Positions 3,388 through 27,353 of a stretch of 47,587 nucleotides of DNA are shown piece after piece. The position numbers were made by a program, and so were the translations under genes. The stretch comes from a virus: positions 1 through 47,587 of IMG/VR virus record IMGVR_UViG_3300020428_000021; one strand, given 5' to 3'. The notes below the pieces were generated by a model. It did not search any database, was not told where the DNA came from, and saw only the letters and a list, made by a program, of their open reading frames with translations. Position 1 is the first letter of the stretch, and the number at the start of each line of letters is the position of its first letter.

Positions 3388-3418
3388 GAGTTAGTAGAAA
3401 TACTAACTCTCTTTTTTT
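3388..3418 (+). terminator. Intrinsic terminator of the plus-strand block
   Basis: A perfect 9-bp inverted repeat (GAGTTAGTA / TACTAACTC, at 3388-3396 and 3401-3409) encloses a GAAA tetraloop and is followed by a T-rich tract TCTTTTTTT (3410-3418). This is a classical Rho-independent terminator for plus-strand transcription. The T-tract includes the first two bases of the reverse-complemented stop codon (3417-3419) of the convergent dehydrogenase gene. Read on the minus strand, the hairpin lacks a U-tract, so it is directional. Confidence 0.9.
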
Positions 3419-4595
3419 ATCTTGTATTTCCGTAATGAATAACTTCGTGCTTATCCGATGTGTAAGAACGCCACGGATCAACTACAACTGAATCATCTGA
3501 TAGTTCTACATAAAGCTCTGGATGAGCTAAAAGAACACAAGCTCTAAAAGGTCCTGGATCTGCACCAAATACTAATGGATCAACTTGCATAGGATTATAG
3601 TCATACTCTGTACAATACTGTGCAACTAGTAAAGCATAACTCCCATCAATATAAGGTACACCTGGTTTATAAGAAATACCATTAATAAGAATAGGAAGTT
3701 CTTTTTCTTTTGCAATATCACAAAGTTTTAGTGCAATATTTTGTGCTTGAACTTCTCTAGCATTCATAACTGCATCAAATATATCATAACCAAGATCTAG
3801 TTTCTTTGCCATGTATCTAAGTGCAATATTATCTCTTGGGTGACAACTGCCGCCATCTCCCATTCCTGCTTTCATGTAACTTGGTCCCATAATACGCTGT
3901 GTGCTTTCTGCAAGTGCTGTAGTAACTACATCAACATTTATATTACCTTGCTTTTCAGCAACGTCTTGTATCATGTTTACAAGTCCAATCTTTGTACTAA
4001 TAAATGTATTGTAGAATACTTTGATACATTCGCATTCGTCCCAAGTACCAATTACATAACGTGTATCGTTTTCCATACATGTATCATAAAAATCTCTAAG
4101 CTCTTTAGCATCGCCAGTTTCACTGCCATCTTCTGTGCCAATCATAACCATTTCAGGATTGACCATATCCCAAGCAACTGTACCCATAGCAATCAAATAA
4201 GGATTATAAACAAAACGTGTGTTAGTTACTAAAGGAACAAACTCACGTCTTACTGTGCCAGGTAATACTGTACTAATAAGCACAAGCATTTGGTTTTTGT
4301 TCATATACCTGTCTGCTTCCTTTAAACAATCAATAACAATATCGTATTGGAAGTCTTTAGGTTCTAGGTGTGCTGTTGGTGCTTTACCATCATAGTTTGG
4401 ATCATGTGGAGTAGGTACTGCAACAAATACAATGTCTGCTACTTCTGCTACTTCTTTAATTGTTTCTTCTACAATGACATAGTCGCTGTCTAACGATTTG
4501 TCTACATCATAACCAAGAACAGCATGTCCTTTTTTGGCAATTACTTCTGCACAAGGCATACCCAATTTGCCTAGTCCAATAAATCCAATTTTCAT
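3417..4595 (-). CDS. UDP-glucose/GDP-mannose dehydrogenase family protein
   Basis: This enzyme of nucleotide-sugar metabolism is predicted to oxidise a UDP- or GDP-hexose twice with NAD+ to the uronic acid. At the N-terminus GFIGLGKLGMP gives the Rossmann GxGxxG (Gly7, Gly9, Gly12). STVLPGT (about 109-114) is the usual family motif. GGSCHPRD holds the expected catalytic Cys251 and sits in the substrate-binding middle domain. NGISYKPGVPYIDGS and VVDPWR mark the UDP-binding C-terminal domain. At 392 residues it is near full family length (about 390-450) and looks intact. Exact substrate (UDP-Glc, UDP-ManNAc or similar) cannot be told. It is separated from the glycosyltransferase operon by 141 bases and has its own late-promoter element with an AGAAAGG ribosome site. 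Confidence 0.93.
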   Translation of the reverse strand: MKIGFIGLGKLGMPCAEVIAKKGHAVLGYDVDKSLDSDYVIVEETIKEVAEVADIVFVAVPTPHDPNYDGKAPTAHLEPKDFQYDIVIDCLKEADRYMNKNQMLVLISTVLPGTVRREFVPLVTNTRFVYNPYLIAMGTVAWDMVNPEMVMIGTEDGSETGDAKELRDFYDTCMENDTRYVIGTWDECECIKVFYNTFISTKIGLVNMIQDVAEKQGNINVDVVTTALAESTQRIMGPSYMKAGMGDGGSCHPRDNIALRYMAKKLDLGYDIFDAVMNAREVQAQNIALKLCDIAKEKELPILINGISYKPGVPYIDGSYALLVAQYCTEYDYNPMQVDPLVFGADPGPFRACVLLAHPELYVELSDDSVVVDPWRSYTSDKHEVIHYGNTR

Positions 4596-4736: not shown

Positions 4737-5882
4737 CTAATTCATAGGCTTTATTAAGTGGTTTCTCCCTTGTAAAACCCTATAATTATATTGTGCAATT
4801 TCACGCACTTTGGAATGCCATTCTCTAAATTCTGCACCTTTCAAATTGCACAATCTTTCAATTTCATCTACAATTGCTATTGCTCGATCTCCGTGATCTT
4901 CAATCTTATCGTATCCTTCATTTATATGAGGATGATAAGATCTGTATCCTAACTTTTTAAGATATTGCAATGTATTTGGAGAACCTATCAACACATACGG
5001 ATGCCCCATACCAATACATTTAAATATTTTTTCACTTAGGAACGGAACGTCCTCGTAGAATGTTGTTTCACTAATTACACTAAAATATGTTTCTTGATAG
5101 TACTTATGTATTGATAGTTGGTGTTCTGCTCTATTAGTAACAAGATCCTCTTCATCAAGATACATTGGCGTTAACTGTTGTACGTCAGAAGAACGTTTTA
5201 AAACACGAGAAATCTCTTTATGGGTTTCGTGGTTTGTTTCCAATCGGTTCCATACATGTTTCCAATCTAAATTATCGTCTGACGGTCCTAGGCTAACATA
5301 TCCATCATCTAGTAATCCTCTATCATGAAGTAGTGTAACCATTAACGGTCTGTGCAAACGCCAGCGTCTATTTAGATTAAGATATTTTTTAGAGTACTTG
5401 CGTTTCTTTTCCATGGTAGGTAAATTTCTACGCTGTAGTATTGTATCTTTGCCAGTATTTTCAAATAAAGTAAACCACATAATTTTAATAGGCTCTACAT
5501 TATTTTTCTTACAATAATTTAATGCGTATTTGTACATAGTAGGTACACCAGATAAAAACACAACTTGACTTGTTGGTATGTCATATTTTTGTATGATATC
5601 ATTATAAATGGCATCTAAACTGTCATAAAAGAACTCTAACGAGTTGTCTAGTACTAATGAAATCTGTTTAAGTTGTAATTTAAGAATCGTTTCTTGATCT
5701 AAAATCGTATCTAAAGGAAAATATTTAAAACTTCTTGCATTAGAAAACATTATGAAATAGTAATCTTGTTTTAGTTTGATACGTCCTAGTTCAGCAGGAT
5801 TGGTATCTATAGTAACTTTCTGAGGATTATTATCATCGTATGTTATAAGGTACGGTAAATTATCGTTATTCAAACAAGCCAT
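4737..5882 (-). CDS. Putative glycosyltransferase-like protein (paralogue of 6660-7898)
   Basis: Residues 1 to about 150 form a poorly conserved domain that includes a small Rossmann-like stretch (SQVVFLSGVPTMYKYALNYC). The C-terminal half has the signature SEKIFKCIGMGHPYVLIGSP followed by LKKLGYRSYHP. This resembles the donor-binding C-terminal segment of fucosyltransferase/exostosin-type GT-B enzymes, where a conserved E-K with a following G-x-P/H-x-V/I holds the nucleotide sugar. The same signature and an LNRxxRxHR segment recur in the gene two places upstream, so the two are paralogues. Start and upstream stop overlap as TAATG. It is the last gene of the long operon. Activity and sugar are unknown; glycosyltransferase is an inference from a short motif. 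Confidence 0.7.
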   Translation of the reverse strand: MACLNNDNLPYLITYDDNNPQKVTIDTNPAELGRIKLKQDYYFIMFSNARSFKYFPLDTILDQETILKLQLKQISLVLDNSLEFFYDSLDAIYNDIIQKYDIPTSQVVFLSGVPTMYKYALNYCKKNNVEPIKIMWFTLFENTGKDTILQRRNLPTMEKKRKYSKKYLNLNRRWRLHRPLMVTLLHDRGLLDDGYVSLGPSDDNLDWKHVWNRLETNHETHKEISRVLKRSSDVQQLTPMYLDEEDLVTNRAEHQLSIHKYYQETYFSVISETTFYEDVPFLSEKIFKCIGMGHPYVLIGSPNTLQYLKKLGYRSYHPHINEGYDKIEDHGDRAIAIVDEIERLCNLKGAEFREWHSKVREIAQYNYRVLQGRNHLIKPMN

Positions 5883-6673
5883 TATAACCGTCCTGGAATG
5901 TTATCATCTTCGTTCCACCATTTTTCTAGGTCATGAAAATTTCTTGCTTTTAATACTTTTTGATTTGTGTGTGCAACAAATTGTTTCATCTTTTCTGTTA
6001 TATTATGATTTGGTAAGCATTTAGAAATGTATTCTAAATAGTGTTCAGGTCTAGGGTGATAATCAGCAGTCTGCCCAGTGCTGTTGTGTCCACGTATTGG
6101 CGTCTGTGGCCATACACCGTTAAGCACAGTACTAAGTATGTCTGGTTTTATTGCTGCTAGTGTTGAAGCATATAATCTTTTAATATCTCCGTAGTCGCTA
6201 TTTTTCATTTCCGGAGTTAAATTAAATGAGATCATATCGTCAATCTCAAAAGGTGCCATGTTCCACATTTGAAAATCAGCAAGTCCGTTCTTCATGTATT
6301 GTCTTGTTAATTCTATAAGTCCTAAATCTCTCATTAGATAAAATCTATAATCAAACCAGTCATGTACAAACTTAGCAGAGATATTATTTTGTGTTGTAAT
6401 GTTTCCTGATGTTATCCAATCTTCGTTCCTATATCTATCTTCACGTGTAACTGAACTCCACATAATAATAACTAAATCATCTTTGTTAAAATTATATCTT
6501 AAATTTGCTTCTACTAGTTGATTAGAAATATAAAGATTACCTGCTCCGGCTTTTCCGTAGTTTATAGTTTCTGGTATTTCTTGTTTAATGATATCAGACC
6601 AAGTTGGCCATTTATATCTAGTAAAACTACAACCAAATGTAAAACATCTTTTATATTTGTTAAACTGTTTCAA
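5882..6673 (-). CDS. SGNH/GDSL-family hydrolase-like protein
   Basis: This is a predicted esterase or deacylase. The N-terminal block FTFGCSFT carries the nucleophile Ser16, which replaces the usual GDS with GCS. NYGKAGAGN (about 38-46) fits the block II glycine and block III asparagine region, and DYHPRPEHY (Asp204, His206, with His211 nearby) fits the C-terminal Asp/His block. At 263 residues it is within the family range. There is no signal peptide, so it should act in the cytoplasm. Relatives often add or remove acetyl groups on carbohydrates, which suits its place between two glycosyltransferase-like genes, but the substrate is unknown. It overlaps the upstream gene by 14 bases and the downstream gene by TAATG. 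Confidence 0.78.
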   Translation of the reverse strand: MKQFNKYKRCFTFGCSFTRYKWPTWSDIIKQEIPETINYGKAGAGNLYISNQLVEANLRYNFNKDDLVIIMWSSVTREDRYRNEDWITSGNITTQNNISAKFVHDWFDYRFYLMRDLGLIELTRQYMKNGLADFQMWNMAPFEIDDMISFNLTPEMKNSDYGDIKRLYASTLAAIKPDILSTVLNGVWPQTPIRGHNSTGQTADYHPRPEHYLEYISKCLPNHNITEKMKQFVAHTNQKVLKARNFHDLEKWWNEDDNIPGRL

Positions 6674-7898
6674 AGTACTTCTCCGCTGATTTTATACAAT
6701 TAGTTATTGCATCTTTATAAAAGTCTTGTGTTCTTGCATGTTCAAAGTTATGTTGCACAGCAGGATATGCATATAGTAAACGTCTTTGCTTAGTTTTAAA
6801 ATCAAGACTGATCCACTCTTTTAAATTTTGTTGTACAGTATTAAAACGTTCTAATGGATCTACAATTAAGTCGTAGGGCTTACTGAACAATTTAAAGTCT
6901 GTTTTAAATCCTAATGAACGTAAACCAGCAAGTGTTCCTCTTGATGCAATTGTGATAAAAGGATGTCCAAGCATAATAGGTTTAAATAATTTCTCTGTTA
7001 AAAATACGCTGTCGTCAAAGAATATAGTTTCAGTTACAACTGTTAGTAATGTGTTTGCATATAGTTCTGCATTGAAACTATTAGCAGCATTTGTAACACT
7101 CCAATCTCCGTCAAAAAATCTTGGAGTAAACTCTTTATGCCTTGCATAATTTTCTTTACCGATTAAGTATTCTGCATTTAGATCTTCGCCTTCTTTAACT
7201 TCGTTACATGTAACAATACCTTTGTCTAGTAGTCCACTAATGCCTAAGTCTGTTACGTGTGCAGCTCTATGCGGTCTATGCACCCTATTTAAACTATTAA
7301 ATGCTTTACTTTCTTCTCTGTACATAGCACCTTTGATTAACGGCTTGTAGGGCATAGATTGATTCATAAATATCTTTAAGAAGTGATTCGAATATGCAAC
7401 TTCAAACATACGTGCATTGCCTGTTTTTTCTAACCAATCTTCGTAATGCTTTTCTACTAATTGGCTTCCTTGCATAATATAAACAGACATCGGTGGCAGT
7501 TCTCTTTTAATTGCAGCGTCATGTATACGCTGCCAGCCGTCACCTAGTGATTTGTGTATAAAAGGACCTCCTTCTTTGTCAGCACCAATTACAAGTCTTA
7601 ATCTTTTTTTCTTTACTAGTTTTACAATATTCTTTGGTAATGCAGTTATGATGTCTGTCGGTCCGTTGTGTACAGAGCTAAGTCCTGTCCACCAACAAGG
7701 ATCACCATTAACATCAATATAATATATGCCAGGCGAATTTCGACAGTTTACTAATTCTTGCACAGGCTTTTTCATGGTGCGTAAAGTTTGTTTAACAATA
7801 GATCCTTTAGAAGTTAGATACCAATCAGTTTCATCTGTGGTAGAAAGATGAGATAAATTTTCTGTTGATTCGTCTATGGTATCAAAGTAAAAATTCAT
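6660..7898 (-). CDS. Putative glycosyltransferase-like protein (paralogue of 4737-5882)
   Basis: The 412-residue protein shares its C-terminal half with the 4737-5882 product. It has LNRVHRPHRAAHVTDLGISG, then TETIFFDDSVFLTEKLFKP, and then LGHPFITIASRGTLAGLRSL. The TEKLFKP..LGHPFI stretch resembles the nucleotide-sugar binding segment of GT10/exostosin-like GT-B enzymes. The N-terminal half differs more; it contains CWWTGLSSVHNGP and RLVIGADKEGGPF, the latter in a Rossmann-like context. No signal peptide. Start and upstream stop overlap as TAATG and the end overlaps the SGNH gene by 14 bases, so the three genes form a tight unit. The function is inferred from a short motif and context. Confidence 0.7.
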   Translation of the reverse strand: MNFYFDTIDESTENLSHLSTTDETDWYLTSKGSIVKQTLRTMKKPVQELVNCRNSPGIYYIDVNGDPCWWTGLSSVHNGPTDIITALPKNIVKLVKKKRLRLVIGADKEGGPFIHKSLGDGWQRIHDAAIKRELPPMSVYIMQGSQLVEKHYEDWLEKTGNARMFEVAYSNHFLKIFMNQSMPYKPLIKGAMYREESKAFNSLNRVHRPHRAAHVTDLGISGLLDKGIVTCNEVKEGEDLNAEYLIGKENYARHKEFTPRFFDGDWSVTNAANSFNAELYANTLLTVVTETIFFDDSVFLTEKLFKPIMLGHPFITIASRGTLAGLRSLGFKTDFKLFSKPYDLIVDPLERFNTVQQNLKEWISLDFKTKQRRLLYAYPAVQHNFEHARTQDFYKDAITNCIKSAEKYFETV

Positions 7899-9094
7899 TA
7901 AGTTAACCTTTTCAATTCAGGAAATGTTTCTGCAAAGTTTTCATTTCTAATTATATCATAATGATGTGTACGGTTTTTAAATTGTTGTTTTGTTTTCTCA
8001 TTAAACTTAGAACTGTTTATATAACTTACAACACCCTTTAGCATATCATCAATATGCTTATTATATTTTTTACTTTGTATCTTTTCAATAATTTCTGTTT
8101 TAAATGAATCATCTAATACTGATGCAGTATAATATTCCGGATATTGTATATTATACATCTGTGGGAAATAATCTTCAAGATCAAAAAATCCTTCATTCAA
8201 TACATAATCAAAAAAGTCTGTTATTGTGTACAAATTAAAGACACTAACAACTGTATTGCTTTGCATTTTGATGTGAGGACATTCTTGTTTTATTTTTTTA
8301 ATATTACTTTTAACCAAATCCCAGTCTGTTCCTGATCTAATATATTCTGCTCTACTACCGTAATGATCTAAACTTGCACCTATATGTATAGTATCAAAGT
8401 GTTTCCATAGCTCTAAGACGCTCTTAGACTTGTATTTTAGCACACTACAGTTACTATTATACTCTAACTTCACATTTGTTTTACCTATTGAAATAAGGTG
8501 TTCTAGTATGTCATAATGCTTGTCTGTAAGCAAAGGTTCTCCGCCTGCAAAGTAAAATGTTTCAATATCCTTAAAGTGCGGAAGGAACTGGTTATACAAC
8601 TTATCGTTGTCATTGCCATCTGCTAAAATAAAAATAGGCTTCTTTTCACCTTGTGCATTATCTTCTTGCGCCCATGTGCTAGAGTATGTGCTACTACAAC
8701 TACGGCATTTAAAGTTACAAATATTACTCCAACGCACATCAAAATGTTTTAGATGCATTACTGGTAATGTACCATCAGCTTCTGTATGTGCTATTAGACC
8801 AGTAGTATCACCAAAGTATGGATTACGATTAGCATGTGTTCTTGAGCTTTCGGCTCCGCCATCTTCTATATTATAACAGGCTTGACATTCTACACAACGT
8901 TTACCCTCAAGCATATTTTTACGTATTTTCTTGTAGGGTTTGTCATTCCAAATTTCTTTGATTGTGTTTTGTCTTACATTACCTAAGGGCTTGTCCCACT
9001 CACCGACACAACAAGGTAACACCGATCCGTCTGGGTTTACATACATATGTAACCAAGGGTATATACAAAACGTATCAGACAGCTTCGCAGTCAT
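7898..9094 (-). CDS. Radical SAM protein with N-terminal twitch/SPASM-like cysteine cluster
   Basis: The radical SAM core is shown by CNFKCRSC, giving CxxxCxxC at Cys126, Cys130 and Cys133, and by the SAM-binding AGGEPLL (about 183-189). A cysteine-rich N-terminal segment (FCIYPWLHMYVNPDG, then CC at 28-29, and CVECQAC at 67-73) resembles the auxiliary-cluster region of twitch/SPASM radical SAM enzymes, but lies before rather than after the core. Members of such families modify peptides or sugars by hydrogen abstraction; the substrate here is unknown. It overlaps the upstream radical SAM gene by 20 bases, so the pair is probably co-translated. Confidence 0.88.
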   Translation of the reverse strand: MTAKLSDTFCIYPWLHMYVNPDGSVLPCCVGEWDKPLGNVRQNTIKEIWNDKPYKKIRKNMLEGKRCVECQACYNIEDGGAESSRTHANRNPYFGDTTGLIAHTEADGTLPVMHLKHFDVRWSNICNFKCRSCSSTYSSTWAQEDNAQGEKKPIFILADGNDNDKLYNQFLPHFKDIETFYFAGGEPLLTDKHYDILEHLISIGKTNVKLEYNSNCSVLKYKSKSVLELWKHFDTIHIGASLDHYGSRAEYIRSGTDWDLVKSNIKKIKQECPHIKMQSNTVVSVFNLYTITDFFDYVLNEGFFDLEDYFPQMYNIQYPEYYTASVLDDSFKTEIIEKIQSKKYNKHIDDMLKGVVSYINSSKFNEKTKQQFKNRTHHYDIIRNENFAETFPELKRLT

Positions 9095-10442
9095 AGTAGA
9101 AGTCCTTTAGATCTGGAAACGTATCAGTAAAGTTAACATTTCTGCGTTTATCATATTCAGTAAACCACTGATAAAAATCTCTACGGCCTTCTGTCAATCT
9201 GTTGACATCATACTGTGTTCTTTCCATATAGTCTACTACACGTCTAAACTTTTCATATTCTAGTTCGCTAAATTTATGCTTATCCTGGTCGTCCATATTA
9301 TCAATAATAAATTGTAAGTGTTTCTTCATGTATGGCATAAATCTTTCTTTAGGTAAGATATTCATATCATATTGTAAAGGTTCTTTTAGATACGGAGTAT
9401 CAAATCTAATTCTTTGCCATTTAGTTTGATTATCGCTATTATATTTTATACGCCAGTCTAAGAACTTTTGCAATAGTGTACTAAAGTTGGTTACAGTTAA
9501 AATATTAAACGTAACCATAAATGTTAAAGGCATATTAGTTTTAGTCATGTATATGTCTAAGTTCTTTTGCCAAAGTTCTAAATCTAATCCTGTTCTAATA
9601 TACTCTGCTTGTGGTCCCCATGTATCAATACTAGTAAAAATTTTAAAGTCTTTGATGCAACCTTTTTCAACTAAATTGTTTACTTTGTCAGTAAATCGTT
9701 CAATAAGAATAGGCTTCACACCTAAGTTAGTATTAATGTTTAGTTCTAAGTTAGGACATGGATTCTTTTCAAGTTCGTCGAACACTCTCCATGTGCTTTG
9801 CTGTAGTAATGGCTCGCCTCCAGTAATACGTAAAATTGTAAGTGTTTTGCGTAACTCAGGCCACCATTTCCACCATGCTTTAACATATGGATTTGTTTCT
9901 TCATCTTTGTGTATTTTAAACCAATCAATATCGTTCCTATGGTTCTTAACCATAGTGTACGGACCTTCCTTTTCAATTTCTTTATAATAACTGCTAGAAT
10001 GTTTAGGGTGACAATAACCACACTTAAAGTTACATTCATTACCAAATGACACTTCAACATATTGCGGATTTACATTTGCCATTGGCTCTTGTTTAATTGC
10101 GTTAAATCTTTCTGGAGTATATATACTTGCATTACGTTCTTTACGGTCACTAATGTAATCTTTACCCATACATTCAACATTCCAACAATAGTTGCAACCA
10201 CTAGGCTTCTTGCCGTCTATCATCATTTGACGTTCTGCTTTTTTCTGTTGTGTGTTATGCAATGCACTTGGATCTGCTTCAATTTCATGCAAAGGTATTT
10301 TATGCGGAGCAGGGTGATAACAACTGTGTGTTTCTCCTGTGCCTAAGTATAATGTTGTATGGTGCCATTTGGCCAGACAGAATGTAGGACTTAGCTCGTC
10401 CATGATAGGTATAAATTTTTCTATTCTTTCCTTATCGTGCAT
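9075..10442 (-). CDS. Radical SAM protein with N-terminal cysteine cluster (second of pair)
   Basis: This 455-residue protein is organised like its neighbour. Cysteines at 22, 41, 83, 86 and 91 in the N-terminal part (including CNYCWNVEC) could ligate an auxiliary iron-sulfur cluster. The radical SAM motif CNFKCGYC follows (Cys137, Cys141, Cys144), then TGGEPLL (about 207-213) for SAM binding. The core is followed by a long helical C-terminus. The first cysteine segment, FCLAKWHH, parallels FCIYPWLH in the neighbour. The two are therefore distant paralogues or a divergent pair acting on related substrates. It overlaps the neighbouring genes by 20 and 11 bases. The reaction is not predictable from sequence. 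Confidence 0.88.
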   Translation of the reverse strand: MHDKERIEKFIPIMDELSPTFCLAKWHHTTLYLGTGETHSCYHPAPHKIPLHEIEADPSALHNTQQKKAERQMMIDGKKPSGCNYCWNVECMGKDYISDRKERNASIYTPERFNAIKQEPMANVNPQYVEVSFGNECNFKCGYCHPKHSSSYYKEIEKEGPYTMVKNHRNDIDWFKIHKDEETNPYVKAWWKWWPELRKTLTILRITGGEPLLQQSTWRVFDELEKNPCPNLELNINTNLGVKPILIERFTDKVNNLVEKGCIKDFKIFTSIDTWGPQAEYIRTGLDLELWQKNLDIYMTKTNMPLTFMVTFNILTVTNFSTLLQKFLDWRIKYNSDNQTKWQRIRFDTPYLKEPLQYDMNILPKERFMPYMKKHLQFIIDNMDDQDKHKFSELEYEKFRRVVDYMERTQYDVNRLTEGRRDFYQWFTEYDKRRNVNFTDTFPDLKDFYYDCEAV

Positions 10443-12069
10443 TAAACTGTTCCTTCAACCAATCAAAGTCATTTATCTTACGTAGGTTGTCTGGCTTGTT
10501 ACTATTTGCAACTCCGTAAGCTCTGCCAGCGTTTGCTCCTAATAGCACATACTCAGCAAAAGGTCCTTTTGCTTCTTTACACCAAATATCTAAACGTTTT
10601 TCAGTTTCCATATTCTCTTGTCTATTAATAGATCTACTTGCTAGTTTAACACATTCTCTAAATGAACTTTTCCATGTACTGTATTCATCTGTATCAAACA
10701 CACTAATATTACTTACTTCATTCATAGCTTTAAACTTCGGAGACAGACTAGTAGTCATATCAGTAGTAAAATCTGTAATGTTCATAACTGCTTTTCTTGG
10801 TAGTAATTTTACACCGCCGTATCCATATTCTAAATCATTTACTGCATTTTTACTTCGCCATACATGCACCATATCTTGATCCCAAAATGGAACACGATAA
10901 TCAAATTTGAAGTGTTCCATTAATTTTGCATCACCGTCAACTACCCAAAACATATTCGTTTCGCATAAACTTGCTGCTTTCATATGTGCTTGATGAATAC
11001 CTTTTACATCACGTACCCAACGTAGTTTTATACTAGAGTCTTGTACTCTAACAATATCTTGTAGTTCGTTAAAGTGTTTGTCTGCATTTTTTTCTTTGTA
11101 ACTTATAAAAGCAATATCATATGACGTTGGTGTACTACTATTTTGTTTTACATCTTTTTTATTAGTAAAGAATCTTGAATTAAATTCACGCTGTGTTACA
11201 GGACGCTCTTTTGAAAATAATGTAACACCGTCATACCATTTGCTATTTTGAAAACAGTGAGTAAGTTTTCTATGATAACTATCATACTTAGGAATATAAT
11301 AATCAAATTTAAAATCATCACTAATATTTAAATCAGGATATACTCCCCAAAACATATCTCCTGTTGCTTTTTCTTGAGCTTGTTTATAATCGTCAAACGT
11401 TTCTAAATTAAATACTTCCCACTTCTTAGGATTACTGGCTACTATGTTAACTTCTTTTTTATTTGTAAAGAATCTGTAATCAAATTCTCGTTTAGCAATT
11501 TTATTATTTTTATGGCAAATAAAAATACCATCGTAAGTTTTATCATTTTTAAAAACATGAACAACATCTTTATCCCAAGCAGGAACTTGATATTGAGGAA
11601 TGTCTGTTGGAACTACATCATCAGGTATGCATAGTATAAACTCTGAATGTGCAATTTCTTGTGCTGTAACAAGTCCTTCGTAACTATCTAGTTTAATAAT
11701 ATCGTAAGGTTTAGGACGACTTGCTACTATATCAATTTCTTTTTTATTTGTAAAGAATCTATACTTCCATTCTTTGCTCGATACGTTTAAGTTTTTAGGA
11801 AATAAGCATACACCATCATAGTGTTCGCCATTCTTAAATACATGAATATATTGATTGTCCCATTCAGTGAGTCTGTATGTAAAATCAAAGTCTTGGTTTA
11901 TATGTAAACAATCCCATACTACCCAAAAGTTTTTTGTAAGAGTCTTTTTATTAAGTGTTTCATAGCTTTCACAGTTTTCTATTTTCTGTGCGTGTGGAAA
12001 ACGTGACTTGAAATTATTCCAAGAACTTACGTTAACCTTAGAATCACTAATAAAAAAGATATCATACAT
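10432..12069 (-). CDS. Protein of three tandem degenerate glycosyltransferase-like units plus a C-terminal GT-like domain
   Basis: The 545 residues divide into three repeats of about 95-100 residues, each ending in RFFTNKK (104-110, 199-205, 299-305), and a longer C-terminal domain. Each repeat has a hydrophobic strand, a W/Y-D-x-x...H-x-F-x-N turn and a YDGV/I strand. These line up with the C-terminal domain (FWVVDGD, then HVWRSKNAV, then YGYGGVKLL). That domain is homologous to the next upstream gene product (12062-12967): compare YDIAFISY with FDVFFLSY, and NDLEYGYGGVKLL with NGLRYGNGGLKLW. Only the C-terminal unit keeps a DxD-like DGD (378-380), which suggests a metal and nucleotide-sugar site. 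The repeats may be substrate-binding or purely structural. Function is inferred. Confidence 0.78.
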   Translation of the reverse strand: MYDIFFISDSKVNVSSWNNFKSRFPHAQKIENCESYETLNKKTLTKNFWVVWDCLHINQDFDFTYRLTEWDNQYIHVFKNGEHYDGVCLFPKNLNVSSKEWKYRFFTNKKEIDIVASRPKPYDIIKLDSYEGLVTAQEIAHSEFILCIPDDVVPTDIPQYQVPAWDKDVVHVFKNDKTYDGIFICHKNNKIAKREFDYRFFTNKKEVNIVASNPKKWEVFNLETFDDYKQAQEKATGDMFWGVYPDLNISDDFKFDYYIPKYDSYHRKLTHCFQNSKWYDGVTLFSKERPVTQREFNSRFFTNKKDVKQNSSTPTSYDIAFISYKEKNADKHFNELQDIVRVQDSSIKLRWVRDVKGIHQAHMKAASLCETNMFWVVDGDAKLMEHFKFDYRVPFWDQDMVHVWRSKNAVNDLEYGYGGVKLLPRKAVMNITDFTTDMTTSLSPKFKAMNEVSNISVFDTDEYSTWKSSFRECVKLASRSINRQENMETEKRLDIWCKEAKGPFAEYVLLGANAGRAYGVANSNKPDNLRKINDFDWLKEQFNAR

Positions 12070-12967
12070 ATTTTTTACTATAGTAGGTTTGACCTAGGTT
12101 CAATGCTTCGTCATATAGATCCATTGTATACCTACTTGCATCAGGTTCTAGCCACACCCAATCAAGCCCTAGGTTTAATTTAATTTCGTCTCCTAGACGT
12201 TGTATTTCAGCAATACATGCTTCACTATCTTTTGAAAAATGCTCTGCTTTCTCTTTCCATATTTCGCCCAACATTTCAAAATCTCTGACTTGTATATGAT
12301 CCCAGTCTGTGCAATTAGTCATATAGGTTCCTTGCCTTGCACCTAGTATTGACATTATACCATTTTCTACATGTGATCCAACCGTTGACCACATTCTAAG
12401 TCTGTGAATATTATGCCACCAAATTCTTTCTTTAATTTCCATAGGTGGTAGTTTTAGACCGTCAAACAATGTCATTTTAACACCTTCTCGAAATCCTGAT
12501 CTCCATGCATGATATGGATTGCCATTTATTTTTGTGTCGCTATAAGTTACTGGAAAGTTTCTATAACCTGTTTCCCAACAAAAGTCAACTTGTGCTCTTT
12601 CGCTATCTGCATTTTCATGTGTTTTCATATTAAGTAAATGATCCTTAGACCATAACTTTAATCCGCCGTTACCGTAACGTAATCCGTTAACAGTATTCTT
12701 ACCACACCAACTATATACTTTAACTTCTTCTTCTGACATGTCTAAGTCAAGATTAAAATATTCAGGATATACTATATTGTCTGCATCAACGGTAAGCAAC
12801 CAATCAGTTTCAGATTGTTCTGCACATGCTTTATGTGCATGATCACTTCCTTTTACACCATGTACACGTTTAGCCCATGGTAACTTATTGCATAGATCTG
12901 CATAATGCAAATCAGCAAAAGGTTCATCATAAGATAAAAAGAATACGTCGAATTCAGCAACCCGCAT
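12062..12967 (-). CDS. Glycosyltransferase-like protein (GT-A type, DAD motif)
   Basis: This 301-residue protein opens with FDVFFLSYDEPFADLHYADL, a typical first strand and helix of a GT-A fold. TDWLLTVDADN follows (DAD at 61-63), the expected metal and nucleotide-sugar binding site. Then come NGLRYGNGGLKLW (94-106) and HAWRSGFREGVKM, both shared with the C-terminal domain of the 10432-12069 product. It therefore looks like the single-domain relative of that repeat protein. No membrane segment or signal peptide is present. The stop of the upstream gene abuts its ATG directly. Donor and acceptor are unknown. Confidence 0.82.
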   Translation of the reverse strand: MRVAEFDVFFLSYDEPFADLHYADLCNKLPWAKRVHGVKGSDHAHKACAEQSETDWLLTVDADNIVYPEYFNLDLDMSEEEVKVYSWCGKNTVNGLRYGNGGLKLWSKDHLLNMKTHENADSERAQVDFCWETGYRNFPVTYSDTKINGNPYHAWRSGFREGVKMTLFDGLKLPPMEIKERIWWHNIHRLRMWSTVGSHVENGIMSILGARQGTYMTNCTDWDHIQVRDFEMLGEIWKEKAEHFSKDSEACIAEIQRLGDEIKLNLGLDWVWLEPDASRYTMDLYDEALNLGQTYYSKKYV

Positions 12968-13618
12968 TTAGATCTCCTCTAATACATAGTTTTTAAACAG
13001 TCTACGAGTAAACACACTAAACTTTCCTGTAATGTCTACATCGTCAATTGTTACAGACTTACCTTCTAACTCTTCAAGTGTAACATCAAAAGTTTTTTGC
13101 GGAAAGTGTGGATCATTATAATCAGCAACTGTAAAAGATAAAGTTGTTTCACCTCCCCAAAATATATTTCTTGGTGTTGCTGGTTGCCACTGTTTTTCTA
13201 AAACTCTTGTACCACCATACTCTTCACTTAGTTCAACTGTAAGTTTTTTGGCAGCTAAGTCATATGTAAGATAGATGTCTGGTTTTACCTCTTCATCTAA
13301 ATAACGCTTATCAATAATCCTATGTAGTACGTCATCAATTTTTGATAAGGTTTTTTCTTCTGTAATTTCAAACTTACCTTCATGAGTATCAAAAAAGCAC
13401 TTACTGATATGGATGTCGCCGTCAATAATTTTGATAGCAAGATCTTCGTCAATTTCAACAACGTTTTTGCTGTACTCCATTTCTATTGCCGAATACGGAC
13501 CTACTGAAATCAGTTGTCCTGTATCTGGGTCAAATGCTGTACCAAATCTACGTGCTGGTTCTTCATAATTTTTAAGCCACTCATCAAAGTCGGGCATAAA
13601 TTCTTCTACTTCTTCCAT
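12968..13618 (-). CDS. Hypothetical beta-rich protein, 216 aa
   Basis: This acidic, beta-strand-rich protein is of unknown function. Its N-terminus (FMPDFDEWLKNYEEPARRFG) leads to AFDPDTGQLISVGP, a strand-turn-strand of the kind seen in phage tail proteins. Strands with alternating hydrophobic and charged residues continue to the end. There are no catalytic motifs and no signal peptide. It lies inside the glycosyltransferase block, overlapping the upstream GT gene by 13 bases and abutting the downstream one, so it is co-expressed with them. It could be a virion component or acceptor protein for the modification enzymes; that is speculation from context. Confidence 0.78.
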   Translation of the reverse strand: MEEVEEFMPDFDEWLKNYEEPARRFGTAFDPDTGQLISVGPYSAIEMEYSKNVVEIDEDLAIKIIDGDIHISKCFFDTHEGKFEITEEKTLSKIDDVLHRIIDKRYLDEEVKPDIYLTYDLAAKKLTVELSEEYGGTRVLEKQWQPATPRNIFWGGETTLSFTVADYNDPHFPQKTFDVTLEELEGKSVTIDDVDITGKFSVFTRRLFKNYVLEEI

Positions 13619-14445
13619 GCTATTTCCTCCAGTACATTAATTGTTTCTAAATTCATTTTATCTTTTTCAACATAATGTACAATGTCGTTTTGTTGATAAC
13701 TACCTATTTTTAATTTGCCTTTATCGTTTAAGTAATATCCTACATGATCTGAAAACTTATCAGCATGCCATGGCCAATTTTGTACACCGCCTTTCATATG
13801 TACAACTCTTGGAAAACCTAACGGGTATGCAATGTCGTCTGTGATATCTAATATCTTTGCTGCTATTGCAAATGCTTCATCAGTTCCTATAACTTTAGGT
13901 GTATGCTTTGTTAAAAACAAATTAGTGTATTCATTTGGATTGTCCATTATAGAACGCTGTAAATTAAAGAAGTCATTTGCTAGTTTACTATCTTTTTTAA
14001 AGAATGTAAAGAATGAATATAAGTTTGGTAATTCATTTTTAGTAAACGTTCTTCTATAAAAATCATTAGTTACTACTTCTCCTCTATATGTATATGCGTT
14101 GTTAGCAACATACAGTTCAGAATTTTCAACAAAGTAATCAATCCAATGGCTGTAATCTCTAAAGAACAACATGTCTGCATCTAAACATACAGTGTGTTCC
14201 CACGGTGTTAGCTCGTCCATATAAGAACGGCCGTCCCAAAAACCTTTTTTGTCCCATTCAATAATTTCGTCAAACACCCAAGTAGATTCAAAATTTTCTA
14301 TTTGAGTTTTATCATCAATTACTAATGCAACTTTATCGTAACCTTCTTTTTGTGTATTCTTAATACTTAATGCAAGAGCATATGCCATTTGTGCATAATT
14401 ATATTCTTCAGAAGTTGCAACAACAATTAGATATCCAAAGTTCAT
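13606..14445 (-). CDS. Glycosyltransferase, GT8-like (DAD motif)
   Basis: This 279-residue protein has the marks of a GT-A transferase. The N-terminal GYLIVVATSEEYNYAQMAYA is followed by a Rossmann-like stretch, then CLDADMLFFRD with DAD at 89-91 for divalent metal and nucleotide sugar. A conserved-looking VIGTDEAFAIAA comes later, and RVVHMKGG (about 216-223) recalls the HxxG metal-ligand segment of GT8 enzymes. No signal peptide. Its stop overlaps the next gene by 13 bases, and its start overlaps the upstream gene by four (ATGA). Together with 14442-15290 it forms a related pair. Confidence 0.85.
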   Translation of the reverse strand: MNFGYLIVVATSEEYNYAQMAYALALSIKNTQKEGYDKVALVIDDKTQIENFESTWVFDEIIEWDKKGFWDGRSYMDELTPWEHTVCLDADMLFFRDYSHWIDYFVENSELYVANNAYTYRGEVVTNDFYRRTFTKNELPNLYSFFTFFKKDSKLANDFFNLQRSIMDNPNEYTNLFLTKHTPKVIGTDEAFAIAAKILDITDDIAYPLGFPRVVHMKGGVQNWPWHADKFSDHVGYYLNDKGKLKIGSYQQNDIVHYVEKDKMNLETINVLEEIAWKK

Positions 14446-15290
14446 ATTAACTCCATTAGTTTGTCAAAGTTTCTTTCAATGCTTTTTTTATTCATTACAT
14501 GAACATCTTTGCCTGATGACGAAGCAACTAGTTCTTCATTGGTTAATAAAAATTGTAATGTGTTATCTTTTACATCAACTAACATATCTCTATCTATTGT
14601 AGAAAACACTGACGGTAATTTGTATTCTGTATCTGCTTCTTGAAACCCATTTAATATATGATTAGCTATTGCAAAACTAATATCATTTCTATACATTCTA
14701 GGATCAAAACGATATGTGTCTGCAAAGAACTTATAATTTTTTTGTATGTATTGTACTAAATCAAAAAGTACTTTTGTTTGATCGTTCTTAGTAAACATAA
14801 CTGTTGTAGCCCAAAGCAACTTAACACCAGTATCTGAAACATACTTGTCATGGTAGCCTGCTCGTGTTCCCATAATATCATTATACTCATGTGAGATTAA
14901 GAAGTCTTGTTCGACATCCCAATAACTGTTTAAAGTATCTGAAAATGTTAGATAATCACAATCTAACAATAGTGTTCTTTTATAAGGTGTAATATCCCAA
15001 ACATTTGGTCTGTTTGAATTATCGAAAGGTACTGCTTCAAAATCATTTCCATCATGAAGATTTCTGTATTGCTGTGTTGGAGGACGCTCTACAAAAATAA
15101 GGCTGTCAAAGATTTCTTTTGCTTTATCTGCAGTACCTATTTCTTCCATATAATCAACAGTTGACTTATCTGTGATTAATGAAACTGGATAGCCGAGATG
15201 CTTTTTAGCAAGGCCGCCTGCGACCAATGCTAGTTTAGAATAGTCTAAACTTCGACTGTTATGTGCAAATATTACGATTCCTTTATCCAT
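14442..15290 (-). CDS. Glycosyltransferase-like protein (DCD motif)
   Basis: This 282-residue protein has a GT-A layout: GIVIFAHNSRSLDYSKLALV at the N-terminus, then KRTLLLDCDYLTFSD, whose DCD at 110-112 replaces the usual DxD while keeping both acidic residues. The segment LLWATTVMFTKNDQTKVLFD and the late RNDISFAIANHI parallel the DEAFAIAA region of its neighbour 13606-14445. The two are probably distant paralogues. It overlaps that neighbour by ATGA and starts one base after the stop of 15292-15642. Nucleotide-sugar donor and acceptor are unknown. Confidence 0.8.
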   Translation of the reverse strand: MDKGIVIFAHNSRSLDYSKLALVAGGLAKKHLGYPVSLITDKSTVDYMEEIGTADKAKEIFDSLIFVERPPTQQYRNLHDGNDFEAVPFDNSNRPNVWDITPYKRTLLLDCDYLTFSDTLNSYWDVEQDFLISHEYNDIMGTRAGYHDKYVSDTGVKLLWATTVMFTKNDQTKVLFDLVQYIQKNYKFFADTYRFDPRMYRNDISFAIANHILNGFQEADTEYKLPSVFSTIDRDMLVDVKDNTLQFLLTNEELVASSSGKDVHVMNKKSIERNFDKLMELI

Positions 15291-15291
15291 A

Positions 15292-15642
15292 TTATACTTC
15301 TATAAGTTTTTCTACGGATCTGCTCTTTTTGAGCTTCTGGTATTCTTCGTAATATTCTAATGTTGATGTTGTGTATCTATCAAGTATGATATCTTTAAAA
15401 TCTGCAAGATTTTCAATCAATATAGGATTATCATTAACATCAAGTAATACTACTCCTTCGGTTCTATCTACTGAAAGTAGCATTTGAACGAAGTTAATCA
15501 GTTCTCTATTGATCTTAAAGATGCCGCCATTAACACCGTATGTTAATCTAGCATCAATTTTTTCCTTTAGAGTTTTACGCTGTACAGCAAAAGTTTCTCT
15601 GTACTTGCTAAAATCCAAGGCTTTTTTTAGTTGTTCTTCCAT
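15292..15642 (-). CDS. Small conserved hypothetical protein, first gene of the modification operon
   Basis: This 116-residue protein is mostly helical and charged, with a central RLTYGVNGGIFKINRELINF and VVLLDVNDNPILIENL segment. I recall similar small proteins next to tail genes in marine T4-like phages, always unannotated. The start is well supported: GTGGAGGACAT places a strong GGAGGA ribosome site just before the ATG, and a late promoter element lies about 30 bases further up. It leads the eleven-gene transcript that ends at 4737. No enzyme motif is visible. Confidence 0.82.
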   Translation of the reverse strand: MEEQLKKALDFSKYRETFAVQRKTLKEKIDARLTYGVNGGIFKINRELINFVQMLLSVDRTEGVVLLDVNDNPILIENLADFKDIILDRYTTSTLEYYEEYQKLKKSRSVEKLIEV

Positions 15643-15670: not shown

Positions 15671-15678
15671 ATATTTAT
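15671..15678 (-). promoter_or_regulatory. Late promoter element (CATAAATAT) driving the modification operon
   Basis: Minus-strand CATAAATAT ends 28 bases before the ATG at 15642, with a GGAGGA ribosome site between. It is one of six minus-strand late-type elements in this window. Eleven genes down to 4737 overlap or abut with no visible internal promoter, so this element probably serves all of them. Confidence 0.65.
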
Positions 15679-15701
15679 GCGCTGTACTGGGGGCTAGGAA
15701 A

Positions 15702-16724
15702 TTAACTGACTACGAATCCGCCCACTGTTACAGCTGGCGTTTCAATATTAAATGATTGTGATCCTGAGGGGTAAAGATTAATGGTACCAACTGCTTTTCT
15801 AGTAACAGTTTGGAGATAAAGTGAAGCAGGTCCTACTAAATCAGGTCCGTATGACCCAGAGCCTACTGATCCTTGAGCTGGAGGGCCACCTAATCCAACG
15901 TGATTGTCATTATAAACTGCTGCCATTTCAAGTTGAAATGCAGTACCATTTGAGTTATCTAATACACTAGGTGTTCTTGCATATAATCTATAATAGTTTG
16001 CATTGTAAGGACTACTTGCAATAGCTGTATACCAAGGTGAGCTATAAACGTTTGTACATCTAAAAAAGTTTCCGTTGTCATTAGGATTTTGACCTGTTGC
16101 TGGTTGTTGTCCTCCAAATGTTTGTGTACTTGCTGTCTGTAGTAAACTTCTCCAAGAAGCGTCTTGGGCTGAACCGCTAATACTGTTCAAACTGCTTGTA
16201 AGTTGAATTTGTCCACCACTATTAAAATAGTGCCTAGCGGCTAATGCTGATGACCATGTAAAAGTAACTAATACTTGAGCAGAAGTCGACCATGTACCTG
16301 TGTATACTGCATTACTGTGTGTTGTAGACGATGCTACTGCTGCAGGTGGTATGGTATATTTTGCAGCCTCTATTGCAATAATTAAATCATTCCATCTTCT
16401 ATAAGGCTGTGTATTGTATGTTCCGTCATTAGTAAGAGTATTTGCTTTAATTTTTTGAGAAGTACTAATGTTATTAGGCCAACTTCCCCAATTAGTAGGA
16501 GGATTTGAACCATATAAATGCCTGTAAGCATTATACATGTCTGTAATTAATCTACCATATTCTTCTACAGATACTTTGTCCGAAACACCAACACCTGATG
16601 CATTCATTGTTTGGCCCCAACCATATAAAGCAGCTGGGCCATCAGAAGGTCCCATCACTAGCTCAAGGCGAGTATATAATGCATTGTAGTCGTTTCTACT
16701 AATTGTTGCGTGTACGGTCGTCAT
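15702..16724 (-). CDS. Tail adhesin-like structural protein (paralogue of 16763-17665)
   Basis: This 340-residue protein is rich in Ser, Thr, Gly and Asn, like virion proteins exposed to solvent. It shares with its neighbour an N-terminal helical module (RNDYNALYTRLELVMG), a central strand region ending ARHYFNSGGQIQLT, and a segment WRSLLQTASTQTFGG that matches WTSLLSTVGRQVVGG there. The second half is beta-strand rich with a Gly/Pro/Ser loop region (GSVGSGSYGPDLVGP). Its start has an AAGGA ribosome site and a dedicated late promoter. A tail-tip or fibre role is inferred from composition and position next to fibre genes. Confidence 0.78.
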   Translation of the reverse strand: MTTVHATISRNDYNALYTRLELVMGPSDGPAALYGWGQTMNASGVGVSDKVSVEEYGRLITDMYNAYRHLYGSNPPTNWGSWPNNISTSQKIKANTLTNDGTYNTQPYRRWNDLIIAIEAAKYTIPPAAVASSTTHSNAVYTGTWSTSAQVLVTFTWSSALAARHYFNSGGQIQLTSSLNSISGSAQDASWRSLLQTASTQTFGGQQPATGQNPNDNGNFFRCTNVYSSPWYTAIASSPYNANYYRLYARTPSVLDNSNGTAFQLEMAAVYNDNHVGLGGPPAQGSVGSGSYGPDLVGPASLYLQTVTRKAVGTINLYPSGSQSFNIETPAVTVGGFVVS

Positions 16725-16762: not shown

Positions 16763-17665
16763 CTATGTTGCACTAATGCTGGTTCCAGAATACGATGGAC
16801 TCGTAATAGAAAATGCAGCACCACTTGGTTGTAATGTTCCTGTAGCTTTTAATTCTTCTACATCAATACTAAGTGTGCCGTCAACTTGATCGCCTGGTGC
16901 TGGTGCACCTGGATCAACGTAACTGTCAGTCAATAAAACCTTAAAGTTGAATACTGCGGCTGTTCCTGCGGAGTTACTTGCCACATCACACTTGCCTTGA
17001 ATCTTGTAATTGTTTGCTGAATATGGCGTACTAGCAGATAAATTATATAAATCTTGATATACATTTGTAAGCATGTATATATTATTCAGCCCGTCTGGTA
17101 ATCTGCCACCAACTACTTGTCTACCCACAGTTGAAAGTAAACTAGTCCATGCACCGTTTTGTGCTGTTGCTGATCCTAGTCCTCTTCCTGTAGTAAATCT
17201 TAGTCTACTTCCAGAGTTCCAAAAATACCTTGCTTCGTTAGCATTACTAAATGTTACAGTTATTACATATTCTGCACTTGTACCCCAAGCAGATGTATAG
17301 CTTTTCGTATCTTTAACTGATGCTGTTAGTAAACCAGCATCGCAATCAAATCTATCATTTCTACATTCGTCAGCAAGTGTGTTGTATCCGTTAAAAGGAT
17401 CACTTGATGATGCTGTAATAGGATCTCCAATAGCAGCAATAGTTGCTGTTGGTACTACACCGTTCTGATGAAAATAAGCATTTACAATGTCAAACCGGAT
17501 TGCATCAAAGTGTGACTTTAATACTGTTTGACCAGAAATAACTGTTGAGCTGTTAACTGATTGTCCATATCCGAATGTACCAACACCGGTACCCATGACT
17601 TCAGCAATTTTGTTGCGCAGGCTGTTGAGGTCTGTTGATAGGATCTGTGCGCCTGTTGTTACCAT
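16763..17665 (-). CDS. Tail adhesin-like structural protein (paralogue of 15702-16724)
   Basis: This 300-residue structural protein parallels its neighbour. The N-terminal helical segment (DLNSLRNKIAEVMGTGVGTF) leads to a beta-rich core with YVITVTFSNANEARYFWNSG and WTSLLSTVGRQVVGG. It ends in a Ser/Thr/Gly stretch. The start and the stop of 17665-19428 overlap as TAATG, so it is translated with that longer fibre-like protein and may assemble on or with it. It has no enzyme motif. The pair probably arose by tandem duplication, but the divergence is already substantial. Confidence 0.78.
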   Translation of the reverse strand: MVTTGAQILSTDLNSLRNKIAEVMGTGVGTFGYGQSVNSSTVISGQTVLKSHFDAIRFDIVNAYFHQNGVVPTATIAAIGDPITASSSDPFNGYNTLADECRNDRFDCDAGLLTASVKDTKSYTSAWGTSAEYVITVTFSNANEARYFWNSGSRLRFTTGRGLGSATAQNGAWTSLLSTVGRQVVGGRLPDGLNNIYMLTNVYQDLYNLSASTPYSANNYKIQGKCDVASNSAGTAAVFNFKVLLTDSYVDPGAPAPGDQVDGTLSIDVEELKATGTLQPSGAAFSITSPSYSGTSISAT

Positions 17666-19468: not shown

Positions 19469-19909
19469 TCACTCGTCTTCTGGTGGTAACGGCTTAGGGT
19501 AAAAACTGTATACACCTGGTTGATCTTTGTACGTTTGAACAGCAGTATTGTGGTTATCAACTTTCTGCTTAACGTAGTTACGCATAGCAATAAAGTCATC
19601 TGTAAGCGGAATTCCAGCATTTTCTAAGCATTCTGCAATAATATTAAGTTGCTTGTGTACAGGATACTTAACAAGAATCTGCTTGTTAACTACTTCGTCA
19701 ATCGCTACTTCTTCAATTAACGGTATATCATTAAGAGATCTTACTTCGCCACTAGCATAATCTCCCCACCAATATTCATTTGCGTCATCTAAATCAATAA
19801 CTTTGTGAGGTACGCCTTGCGCGGTAAGTCTTTCAGCAAACTCGCTATTATAGTCCTGAGACGATATCACCTTTGATCTATCAGTACTAAAAATAATAAT
19901 GTTTTTCAT
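19469..19909 (-). CDS. Hypothetical protein, possibly fibre assembly related
   Basis: The 146-residue protein opens with MKNIIIFSTDRSKVISS. Its C-terminal half carries the segment VKYPVHKQLNIIAECLE followed by DFIAMRNYVKQKVDNHN. A YP(I/V)HKQLN-type motif followed by a helical stretch recurs in small proteins encoded next to tail fibre genes in many phages; I use that only as a hint. It overlaps the oxygenase gene by ATGA and precedes the fibre gene 17665-19428, so it belongs to the fibre region. A chaperone-like role in fibre assembly is a guess. No signal peptide or membrane segment. Confidence 0.72.
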   Translation of the reverse strand: MKNIIIFSTDRSKVISSQDYNSEFAERLTAQGVPHKVIDLDDANEYWWGDYASGEVRSLNDIPLIEEVAIDEVVNKQILVKYPVHKQLNIIAECLENAGIPLTDDFIAMRNYVKQKVDNHNTAVQTYKDQPGVYSFYPKPLPPEDE

Positions 19910-20400
19910 CTAGTTCTTCCCCAACTTAATGCAAGACTTATTTTTGGTCTTTCATTTTGTTTAATTTCTGTTACTTCGTGTTCTAAATTCACAGGCATAT
20001 CTATTAACATACCAGGTCCTTCGTCTACTAAATTTCCTTTGCCTTGTTCATCGTACCAACAAAAGTGCGGAGCATCAGCTCTTAAAAATATTAGTTTAAA
20101 CTTCCAATACCCGCCTGCACTATCTCTATGCCTTTTAAGATAATCACCTGGATCATATTTGTTAATACAAAAACTATCACAAGTTCTATCTTCTTCTGGA
20201 ATTGATTCTGTAATCAACTCCTTTAATTCTTTTGGCATGTTCCAACGGAACATACTTTTTAACTTACTTTCACCATAGGCAGTTACAAAATTAAATTCTT
20301 CTCCTGGCTGCCTAATAAAAAAACTGTCTTCGTTTGCCTCTACTAACTTTACTATCTCATCAACATTCTTACAATAGTCCGATACTAACTTTACTGTCAT
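19906..20400 (-). CDS. 2-oxoglutarate/Fe(II)-dependent oxygenase
   Basis: This 164-residue enzyme (starting MTVKLVSDYC) shows the complete facial triad of the family: HRD (His91, Asp93) and the distal EHEV (His141). RPKISLALSWG follows, with Arg151 as a likely 2-oxoglutarate ligand. It should hydroxylate or oxidise a substrate using O2 and 2-oxoglutarate. A longer frame from 20433 exists, but the ATG at 20400 makes a TAATG overlap with the upstream fibre gene, like many junctions here, so I prefer it. It lies between two fibre genes, and the tail proteins are natural candidate substrates; the actual target (prolyl, lysyl, sugar or nucleotide) is unknown. Confidence 0.9.
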   Translation of the reverse strand: MTVKLVSDYCKNVDEIVKLVEANEDSFFIRQPGEEFNFVTAYGESKLKSMFRWNMPKELKELITESIPEEDRTCDSFCINKYDPGDYLKRHRDSAGGYWKFKLIFLRADAPHFCWYDEQGKGNLVDEGPGMLIDMPVNLEHEVTEIKQNERPKISLALSWGRTR

Positions 20401-27345: not shown

Positions 27346-27353
27346 GTATTTAT
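27346..27353 (-). promoter_or_regulatory. Late promoter element (ATAAATAC) overlapping a stop codon
   Basis: Minus-strand GAATAAATACAC provides both the GAA-TAA end of the giant protein gene and the full ATAAATAC late core. It sits about 25 bases before the preferred ATG at 27321. Its placement is the main reason to reject the longer frame of the following gene. Confidence 0.68.

Follow-up and report, generated by a model that had tools for sequence, protein, structure and literature searches.

A tail-linked operon of an uncultured T4-like phage, with a conserved seven-gene core and exchangeable cassettes, as a candidate pathway for glycan decoration of a tail protein

The virus record IMGVR_UViG_3300020428_000021 of IMG/VR, analyzed here over its full 47,587 bases (the window), carries an operon of eleven open reading frames (ORFs) on the minus strand, running from 15642 to 4737. 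Comparison with related loci divides it into a seven-gene core, whose gene order is retained in phage contigs from both marine and fresh waters, and a four-gene cassette that is exchanged behind the last core gene, the radical SAM gene rsam2. With a probability of roughly one half, the tail-linked operon would represent a late-made, soluble glycan-assembly line that decorates a tail protein, while the cassettes vary the outer chemistry. Decoration of virion proteins, one of two functions proposed in a first-pass annotation of the sequence, is supported as a leading option, as are the late promoter in this lineage, the linkage to tail genes and the set of enzymes. The genes and the promoter motif are, in the direction of transcription:

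T300, 16763–17665, minus strand: paralogue of T340, candidate acceptor
T340, 15702–16724, minus strand: candidate acceptor, a tail-cluster protein whose gene immediately precedes the core
T4-type late promoter motif CATAAATAT, 15671–15679, minus strand: upstream of s116
s116, 15292–15642, minus strand: small conserved protein, function unassigned, first core gene
gtA8b, 14442–15290, minus strand: GT8-like glycosyltransferase (moderate support), DxD invariant
gtA8a, 13606–14445, minus strand: gtA8b homologue, DxD invariant
b216, 12968–13618, minus strand: core protein without assigned function, replaced by an ORF of about 100 amino acids (aa) in contigs L122, L123 and L127
gtA2, 12062–12967, minus strand: putative GT-A-type transferase with a DADN motif, bacterial relatives beside N_Twi_rSAM genes
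rpt, 10432–12069, minus strand: C-terminal domain homologous to gtA2 (DGD motif), preceded by degenerate repeats
rsam2, 9075–10442, minus strand: N_Twi_rSAM radical SAM enzyme, closes the core and marks the left edge of exchange
rsam1, 7898–9094, minus strand: N_Twi_rSAM radical SAM enzyme, cassette
gtB2, 6660–7898, minus strand: putative GT-B-type transferase, gtB1 paralogue, cassette
sgnh, 5882–6673, minus strand: SGNH-like hydrolase by motif (GCS, N46, D204, H206), cassette
gtB1, 4737–5882, minus strand: putative GT-B-type transferase, cassette
UGD, 3417–4595, minus strand: UDP-glucose dehydrogenase with its own TAAATA motif, probably supplying a sugar nucleotide; right edge of exchange

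As the first-pass annotation had described, the eleven ORFs (116–545 aa) overlap or abut, with successive gaps of −1, −14, −1, −20, −11, −8, 0, −13, −4 and +1 bp, i.e. between −20 and +1 bp. All of them are under purifying selection (ω 0.03–0.36 against the related locus L015, and 0.03–0.10 for the seven core genes), so that they can be regarded as real genes. The core order s116-gtA8b-gtA8a-b216-gtA2-rpt-rsam2 was found in more than 100 related uncultured viruses, and with the window proteins mapped onto related loci, neighboring core genes were counted as pairs 129 to 159 times. Relatives of rsam2, rpt and gtA2 were taken from IMG/VR (133 for rsam2, at least 599 stretches for gtA2); the locus counts refer to the best 80 per query and are not independent, some contigs being counted more than once. 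The best conserved core enzyme is rsam2, with about 72% identity in distant loci and an ω of 0.03–0.06. In four short marine contigs (L121, L122, L123 and L127), further radical SAM genes accompany the arrangement T300-s116-gtA8b-gtA8a-(ORF of about 100 aa)-gtA2-rsam2, and the order T300-s116-gtA8b-gtA8a-x-gtA2-rsam2 also persists in the distant contig L111. The four contigs lie in bins titled Verrucomicrobia, Pelagibacter, Betaproteobacteria and Rickettsiales, and are probably misbinned phage contigs. Isolated phages with the core were not found by tblastn with rsam2, rpt, gtA2, gtA8a and s116, nor with the divergent radical SAM protein of L122 as query, in a collection that may omit very close records.

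The remaining four genes behave differently, and the complete eleven-gene chemistry set of the first-pass annotation gives way to a conserved core with an exchangeable cassette. The arrangement rsam1-gtB2-sgnh-gtB1, followed by UGD, occurs in some 60 loci and is reduced, replaced or inverted elsewhere; a single fixed eleven-gene pathway is ruled out by this exchange behind rsam2. The loci L030 and L041 share 98.8% identity across 11,346 bp that start upstream of T587 and run into the 3′ end of rsam2; beyond that point they have no detectable DNA in common, and the pair L019/L021 breaks in the same way. A systematic comparison yielded 39 pairs with a clear break, and those with enough downstream sequence form five groups of near-identical phages, in all of which homology ends between −149 and +203 bp from the rsam2 stop codon; the test demanded a match reaching to at least 300 bp before this stop and did not count breaks further upstream. 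In L032/L037, high identity returns just upstream of UGD, which marks the right edge. The other cassettes encode GDP-mannose/dTDP-glucose-type dehydratases, NAD epimerases, 2-oxoglutarate (2OG)-Fe(II) oxygenases and GDSL hydrolases, as well as B12-binding and SPASM radical SAM enzymes, and since such enzymes recur in the cassettes, the product of the operon is probably a glycan.

The operon had been placed inside the tail gene region, yet it is the final block of a minus-strand tail cluster and is followed by UGD and then by convergent plus-strand genes. Almost every long reading frame between 3.4 kb and the end of the window lies on the minus strand, and together they have the appearance of a T4-like tail and baseplate cluster. 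A baseplate hub-like protein (45097–46863) shares 33% identity with the annotated hub/lysozyme of PA5oct-like phages, and the cluster also holds a 4,593-aa protein and several tail-fibre-like proteins, then T587, T300, T340 and the operon; by tail proteins, the closest isolates, whose identity is low, are giant phages infecting Agrobacterium, Sinorhizobium and Pseudomonas. At all 112 s116 loci with enough upstream sequence, a T300-family gene lies directly upstream, and reciprocally s116 lies directly downstream in 74 of 75 loci sampled by T300/T340 and within 1.2 kb in the 75th. T340 has the highest ω of the genes compared (0.35–0.50 against L030 and L045). Because of the reciprocal linkage to s116, their paralogy and the high ω of T340, T300 and T340 are the best candidates for an acceptor, and their gene position suggests that they are part of the virion; neither has a conserved Cys- or His-rich tail. 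Elsewhere among the tail genes, a small protein (19906–20433) displays by eye an HxD...H pattern, as in 2OG-Fe(II) oxygenases, with a weak hidden Markov model match to AlkB (E 0.02) and 'DNA endonuclease' as its top PHROG match (3.5e-6).

The single late-type promoter noted earlier upstream of the operon is borne out. ATAAATA begins on the minus strand at 15678, about 30 nt upstream of the first gene, and CATAAATA at 15679–15672 fits the published late-promoter form just upstream of a transcription unit, which is NATAAATA in the T4-like cyanophage S-PM2 and TATAAATA in T4 (PMC2984593). TAAATA is kept 33–36 nt before s116 in 19 of 20 dereplicated loci, in flanking DNA that has otherwise diverged. 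On the minus strand of the window the motif occurs 13 times, and five copies sit 6–45 nt ahead of a start among 25 genes tested, such zones covering 2.1% of the window (binomial P about 5e-6); it is concentrated just upstream of the first genes of units (T1164, T587, T340, s116 and UGD). Sigma70-like sites around the operon make no case for themselves (60 found vs 72 expected by chance). T340 and s116 are 59 bp apart and no minus-strand terminator-like site was found in this gap, so that read-through from the tail transcript is likely to contribute as well. In the distant lineages, the same T300–s116 junction carries sigma70-type promoters, namely, in each of L121, L122, L123 and L127, TTGATT or a near variant followed by TATAAT at 12 nt from the start codon, and TTGACA-17-TATACT in L111. 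Since the junction is kept while the promoter type has changed, the claim of late timing is confined to the lineage of the window; the predicted late expression is lineage-specific, and the proposal that the operon is expressed late with the virion proteins agrees with motif and tail linkage in the window lineage but does not extend to these five contigs. In L065, L076, L080 and L081, a palindrome or short hairpin directly follows the late motif and precedes the operon's ribosome-binding site (L065: ATAAACTACGTAGTTTAT). In the window, AATAAATAC at 27347–27354 lies within the predicted N-terminus of the 233-aa ORF, which suggests that the true start of this ORF is further downstream, behind a late promoter.

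The enzymes named in the first-pass annotation (GT-A- and GT-B-like enzymes, an SGNH hydrolase and two radical SAM enzymes) can be assigned with different degrees of confidence. Firmly predicted are the two N_Twi_rSAM enzymes: rsam1 and rsam2 score 390 and 315 bits with NCBIfam NF033640 (curated cutoff 170 bits for the whole protein), and the radical SAM motif CxxxCxxC is invariant in 21 rsam2 and 11 rsam1 sequences. A DxD motif is invariant in gtA8a, gtA8b and gtA2 across their relatives. There is moderate support for gtA8a and gtA8b as GT8-like, with glycogenin as the sole PDB match (E 0.09–0.29) and PF01501 matched in one relative (E 0.0096). By motif and by the judgement of the first-pass annotation, gtA2 and rpt are putative GT-A-type enzymes (weak PF13704 match, E 0.08), and gtB1 and gtB2 putative GT-B-type enzymes; a relationship of gtA2 to the GT8-like pair found no support in profile comparison. 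The conserved motifs of sgnh (GCS, G43/G45, N46, D204 and H206) point to an SGNH-like hydrolase, and the window protein has no Pfam match. PDB profile searches with gtA8a, gtB, sgnh and gtA2 returned nothing usable. The N-terminal part of rpt (10432–12069) consists of about three degenerate units, each closing with RFFTNKK, a motif partly lost in relatives, while VVDGD occurs once, in the C-terminal unit. Radical SAM relatives with SPASM or twitch domains act mostly on peptides and in some cases on sugar-like substrates, so that a radical step on either a peptide or a sugar can be envisaged. Our literature search found neither a function nor a characterized member for N_Twi-type radical SAM enzymes, and the papers searched held no experiment on any member.

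The pairing of a gtA2-like protein with an N_Twi_rSAM enzyme recurs in bacteria. Genes 30–40% identical to gtA2, or similar to the C-terminus of rpt, adjoin N_Twi_rSAM genes in contigs titled mostly Bdellovibrionales, Bdellovibrionia or Oligoflexia (L163, L165, L171, L176, L177 and L179). In the class of the L177 organism (116 genomes), gtA2 relatives occur in nine genomes, and N_Twi_rSAM in 9/9 of those vs 58/116 overall; judged by the listed coordinates, some 4 kb or less separates the two in 7/9, and 250 bp or less in 4/9. From this co-occurrence and proximity, the pair looks like a functional couple that extends outside phages. Two more radical SAM families (FCNY[KN]CSYCWPYARS; LE[IV][TS]SKC.A.CPMC or close variants) accompany the pair both in the phage contig L111 and in Bdellovibrionia-type contigs (L165, L176 and L177).

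A comparable position is occupied by other enzymes in Agrobacterium phage Atu_ph07 and Sinorhizobium phage Phosso, which have the gene order giant protein-p233-T587 in common with the window. Behind their T587 homologue stand three or four radical SAM genes and a protein of about 300 aa with a CHxS-repeat end (CHSSCHASCHNSRSRR or CHTSCHASCHSSRSRR; genes at L116:16449-17339 and L117:15679-16599). Both arrangements are co-oriented radical SAM operons in the same place behind T587 and p233 homologues, but the enzymes are not orthologous to those of the window (the best match, E 7e-7, is confined to part of the radical SAM domain), and instead of a transferase-like core there are the CHxS-repeat protein and a cupin-like protein. 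This suggests a recurrent modification slot behind T587, filled from two unrelated enzyme sets. The CHxS proteins sit between radical SAM/SPASM genes, are reminiscent of His-Xaa-Ser precursors of the kind known from ribosomally synthesized and post-translationally modified peptides, and are possibly radical-SAM-modified virion or secreted proteins; homology of T300 to the CHxS protein of Atu_ph07 was tested and found no support. In Pseudomonas phage Paride no radical SAM operon lies behind T587, and in Campylobacter phage IBB_35 radical SAM genes are present, not beside a T587-like gene.

Given that transmembrane-like segments are found in none of the operon proteins, the operon would encode no flippase, polymerase or lipid-carrier transferase, and this, taken with the late motif and the linkage to tail genes, favors cytoplasmic modification of a tail protein. 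In such a scheme a soluble assembly line would be expressed late with the tail genes of the window lineage, the core transferases (gtA8a/b, gtA2 and rpt) would place a first sugar or short glycan onto the tail protein, most plausibly T340 or T300, and rsam2 would carry out a radical oxidation or rearrangement on the sugar or the attachment residue. The cassette (rsam1, gtB1/2, the SGNH-like enzyme and the UGD-derived sugar) would then add and trim a variable outer part, and its replacement would give the same virion proteins a new surface chemistry, comparable to bacterial serotype loci. We infer the acceptor, the sugars, the order of reactions and the biological benefit from the gene content, gene order, motif, selection, exchange and linkage that were observed. 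The late motif shared with the first genes of tail units, the radical SAM operons in the T587 slot of Atu_ph07 and Phosso, and the precedent of virion glycosylation in mycobacteriophages, as cited in PMC11256854, are consistent with this scheme. More tentatively, widespread uncultured aquatic T4-like phages may use the seven-gene core to furnish a dedicated tail protein with a glycan tailored by radical SAM chemistry, and vary its outer chemistry by cassette exchange behind rsam2.

Several observations weigh against decoration of a tail protein. T300 and T340 are as yet candidates for modified virion proteins, and synteny kept within a phage lineage can reflect common ancestry rather than function. 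Profile searches with gtA2 and rpt against the PDB and GT8 profiles gave no match to a GT-A enzyme, and for a GT-B fold of gtB1 and gtB2 there is no Pfam, NCBIfam or PDB match. The bacterial gtA2 relatives stand beside N_Twi_rSAM genes with no phage tail noted nearby, and the sigma70-type promoters of the distant lineages likewise speak against the scheme. Furthermore, the GT8 enzymes of the lipopolysaccharide (LPS) core are soluble too, so that a role at the host surface is compatible with the lack of membrane segments. Such a role, possible though in our view doubtful, would have soluble cytoplasmic transferases act late in infection on LPS core, O-antigen or capsule precursors, which would prevent re-adsorption of progeny to debris or superinfection by rival phages, with cassettes that track the diversity of host sugars. 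It is the published reading of the glycosyltransferases, most commonly GT8, in the pelagimyophage host recognition cluster (PMC7029224); the cassettes with sugar-nucleotide enzymes and UGD resemble O-antigen loci, and sigma70-type promoters would suit earlier expression. The operon nevertheless contains no membrane protein, flippase or polymerase, the late motif and the strict linkage to a tail-cluster protein point elsewhere, and the T300–s116 linkage persists even where the lineages have diverged deeply and the promoter type has changed.

It is improbable that the core acts mainly by radical SAM peptide chemistry (cross-linking, epimerization or oxidation) on a tail protein, with the transferase-like proteins as nucleotide- or sugar-binding partners. 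The strong conservation of rsam2, the pairing of gtA2 with N_Twi_rSAM in bacteria as well, the mostly peptide-acting SPASM-type relatives and the CHxS-tail protein amid the radical SAM genes of Atu_ph07 and Phosso, which resembles a peptide substrate, would agree with this, whereas the invariant DxD of gtA8a, gtA8b and gtA2, the recurrence of sugar-nucleotide enzymes in cassettes and the lack of a Cys- or His-rich tail in T300/T340 would not. Glycosylation or another hypermodification of phage DNA is highly improbable, although phage glycosyltransferases often act on DNA bases (PMC12619734): it is disfavored by the late motif and the tail linkage, since DNA modification must accompany replication, no base hydroxymethylase was recognized within the window, and GDSL, dehydratase and epimerase cassettes suit surface glycans better.

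If tail proteins are decorated, the virion surface chemistry of common aquatic phages would come from a dedicated pathway that is switchable by recombination and independent of protein sequence, which would bear on the prediction of host range and adsorption from genomes. This would parallel, on the phage virion, the serotype switching of bacteria, and would give N_Twi_rSAM enzymes an assigned role; with gtA2 as a recurrent partner and T300/T340 as candidate protein substrate, the reaction becomes testable with few genes.

Among known systems, Campylobacter phages CP220 and CPt10 are likewise T4-like and carry many radical SAM genes in interchangeable modules, but these are paired with a putative glycine amidinotransferase, and the paper mentions no glycosyltransferase (PMC2853527). 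In mycobacteriophages Che8 and Rita, glycans on virion proteins are reported together with phage-encoded glycosyltransferases (Freeman 2023, as cited in PMC11256854 and PMC12619734); these are different phages, for which the citing passages describe no radical SAM, SGNH or cassette switching, and decoration in the window is a prediction. Also comparable is the pelagimyophage 'host recognition cluster', in which cassettes of glycosyltransferases and radical SAM enzymes in the tail-fibre region were interpreted as modifying the host O-antigen (PMC7029224). These aquatic T4-like phages also encode glycosyltransferases (GT8 commonest), UDP-glucose dehydrogenase and radical SAM enzymes, and their cassettes vary between close relatives, as they do behind rsam2 (PMC7029224). 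That cluster is described as a variable glycosyltransferase island between VrlC and gp14; in the window, the tail cluster and a transferase-rich island are present, and VrlC and gp14 were not located. Late promoters could not be detected in pelagimyophages, in contrast to the T4-type late motif of the window lineage. The first-pass view that the operon matches no known phage pathway therefore has to be qualified, since similar islands of glycosyltransferases and radical SAM enzymes have been published (PMC7029224); it still applies in that the pelagimyophage cluster is called non-syntenic, whereas the window operon combines a strict seven-gene core, an unvarying neighbor from the tail cluster and a conserved promoter with a cassette edge that is fixed at rsam2.

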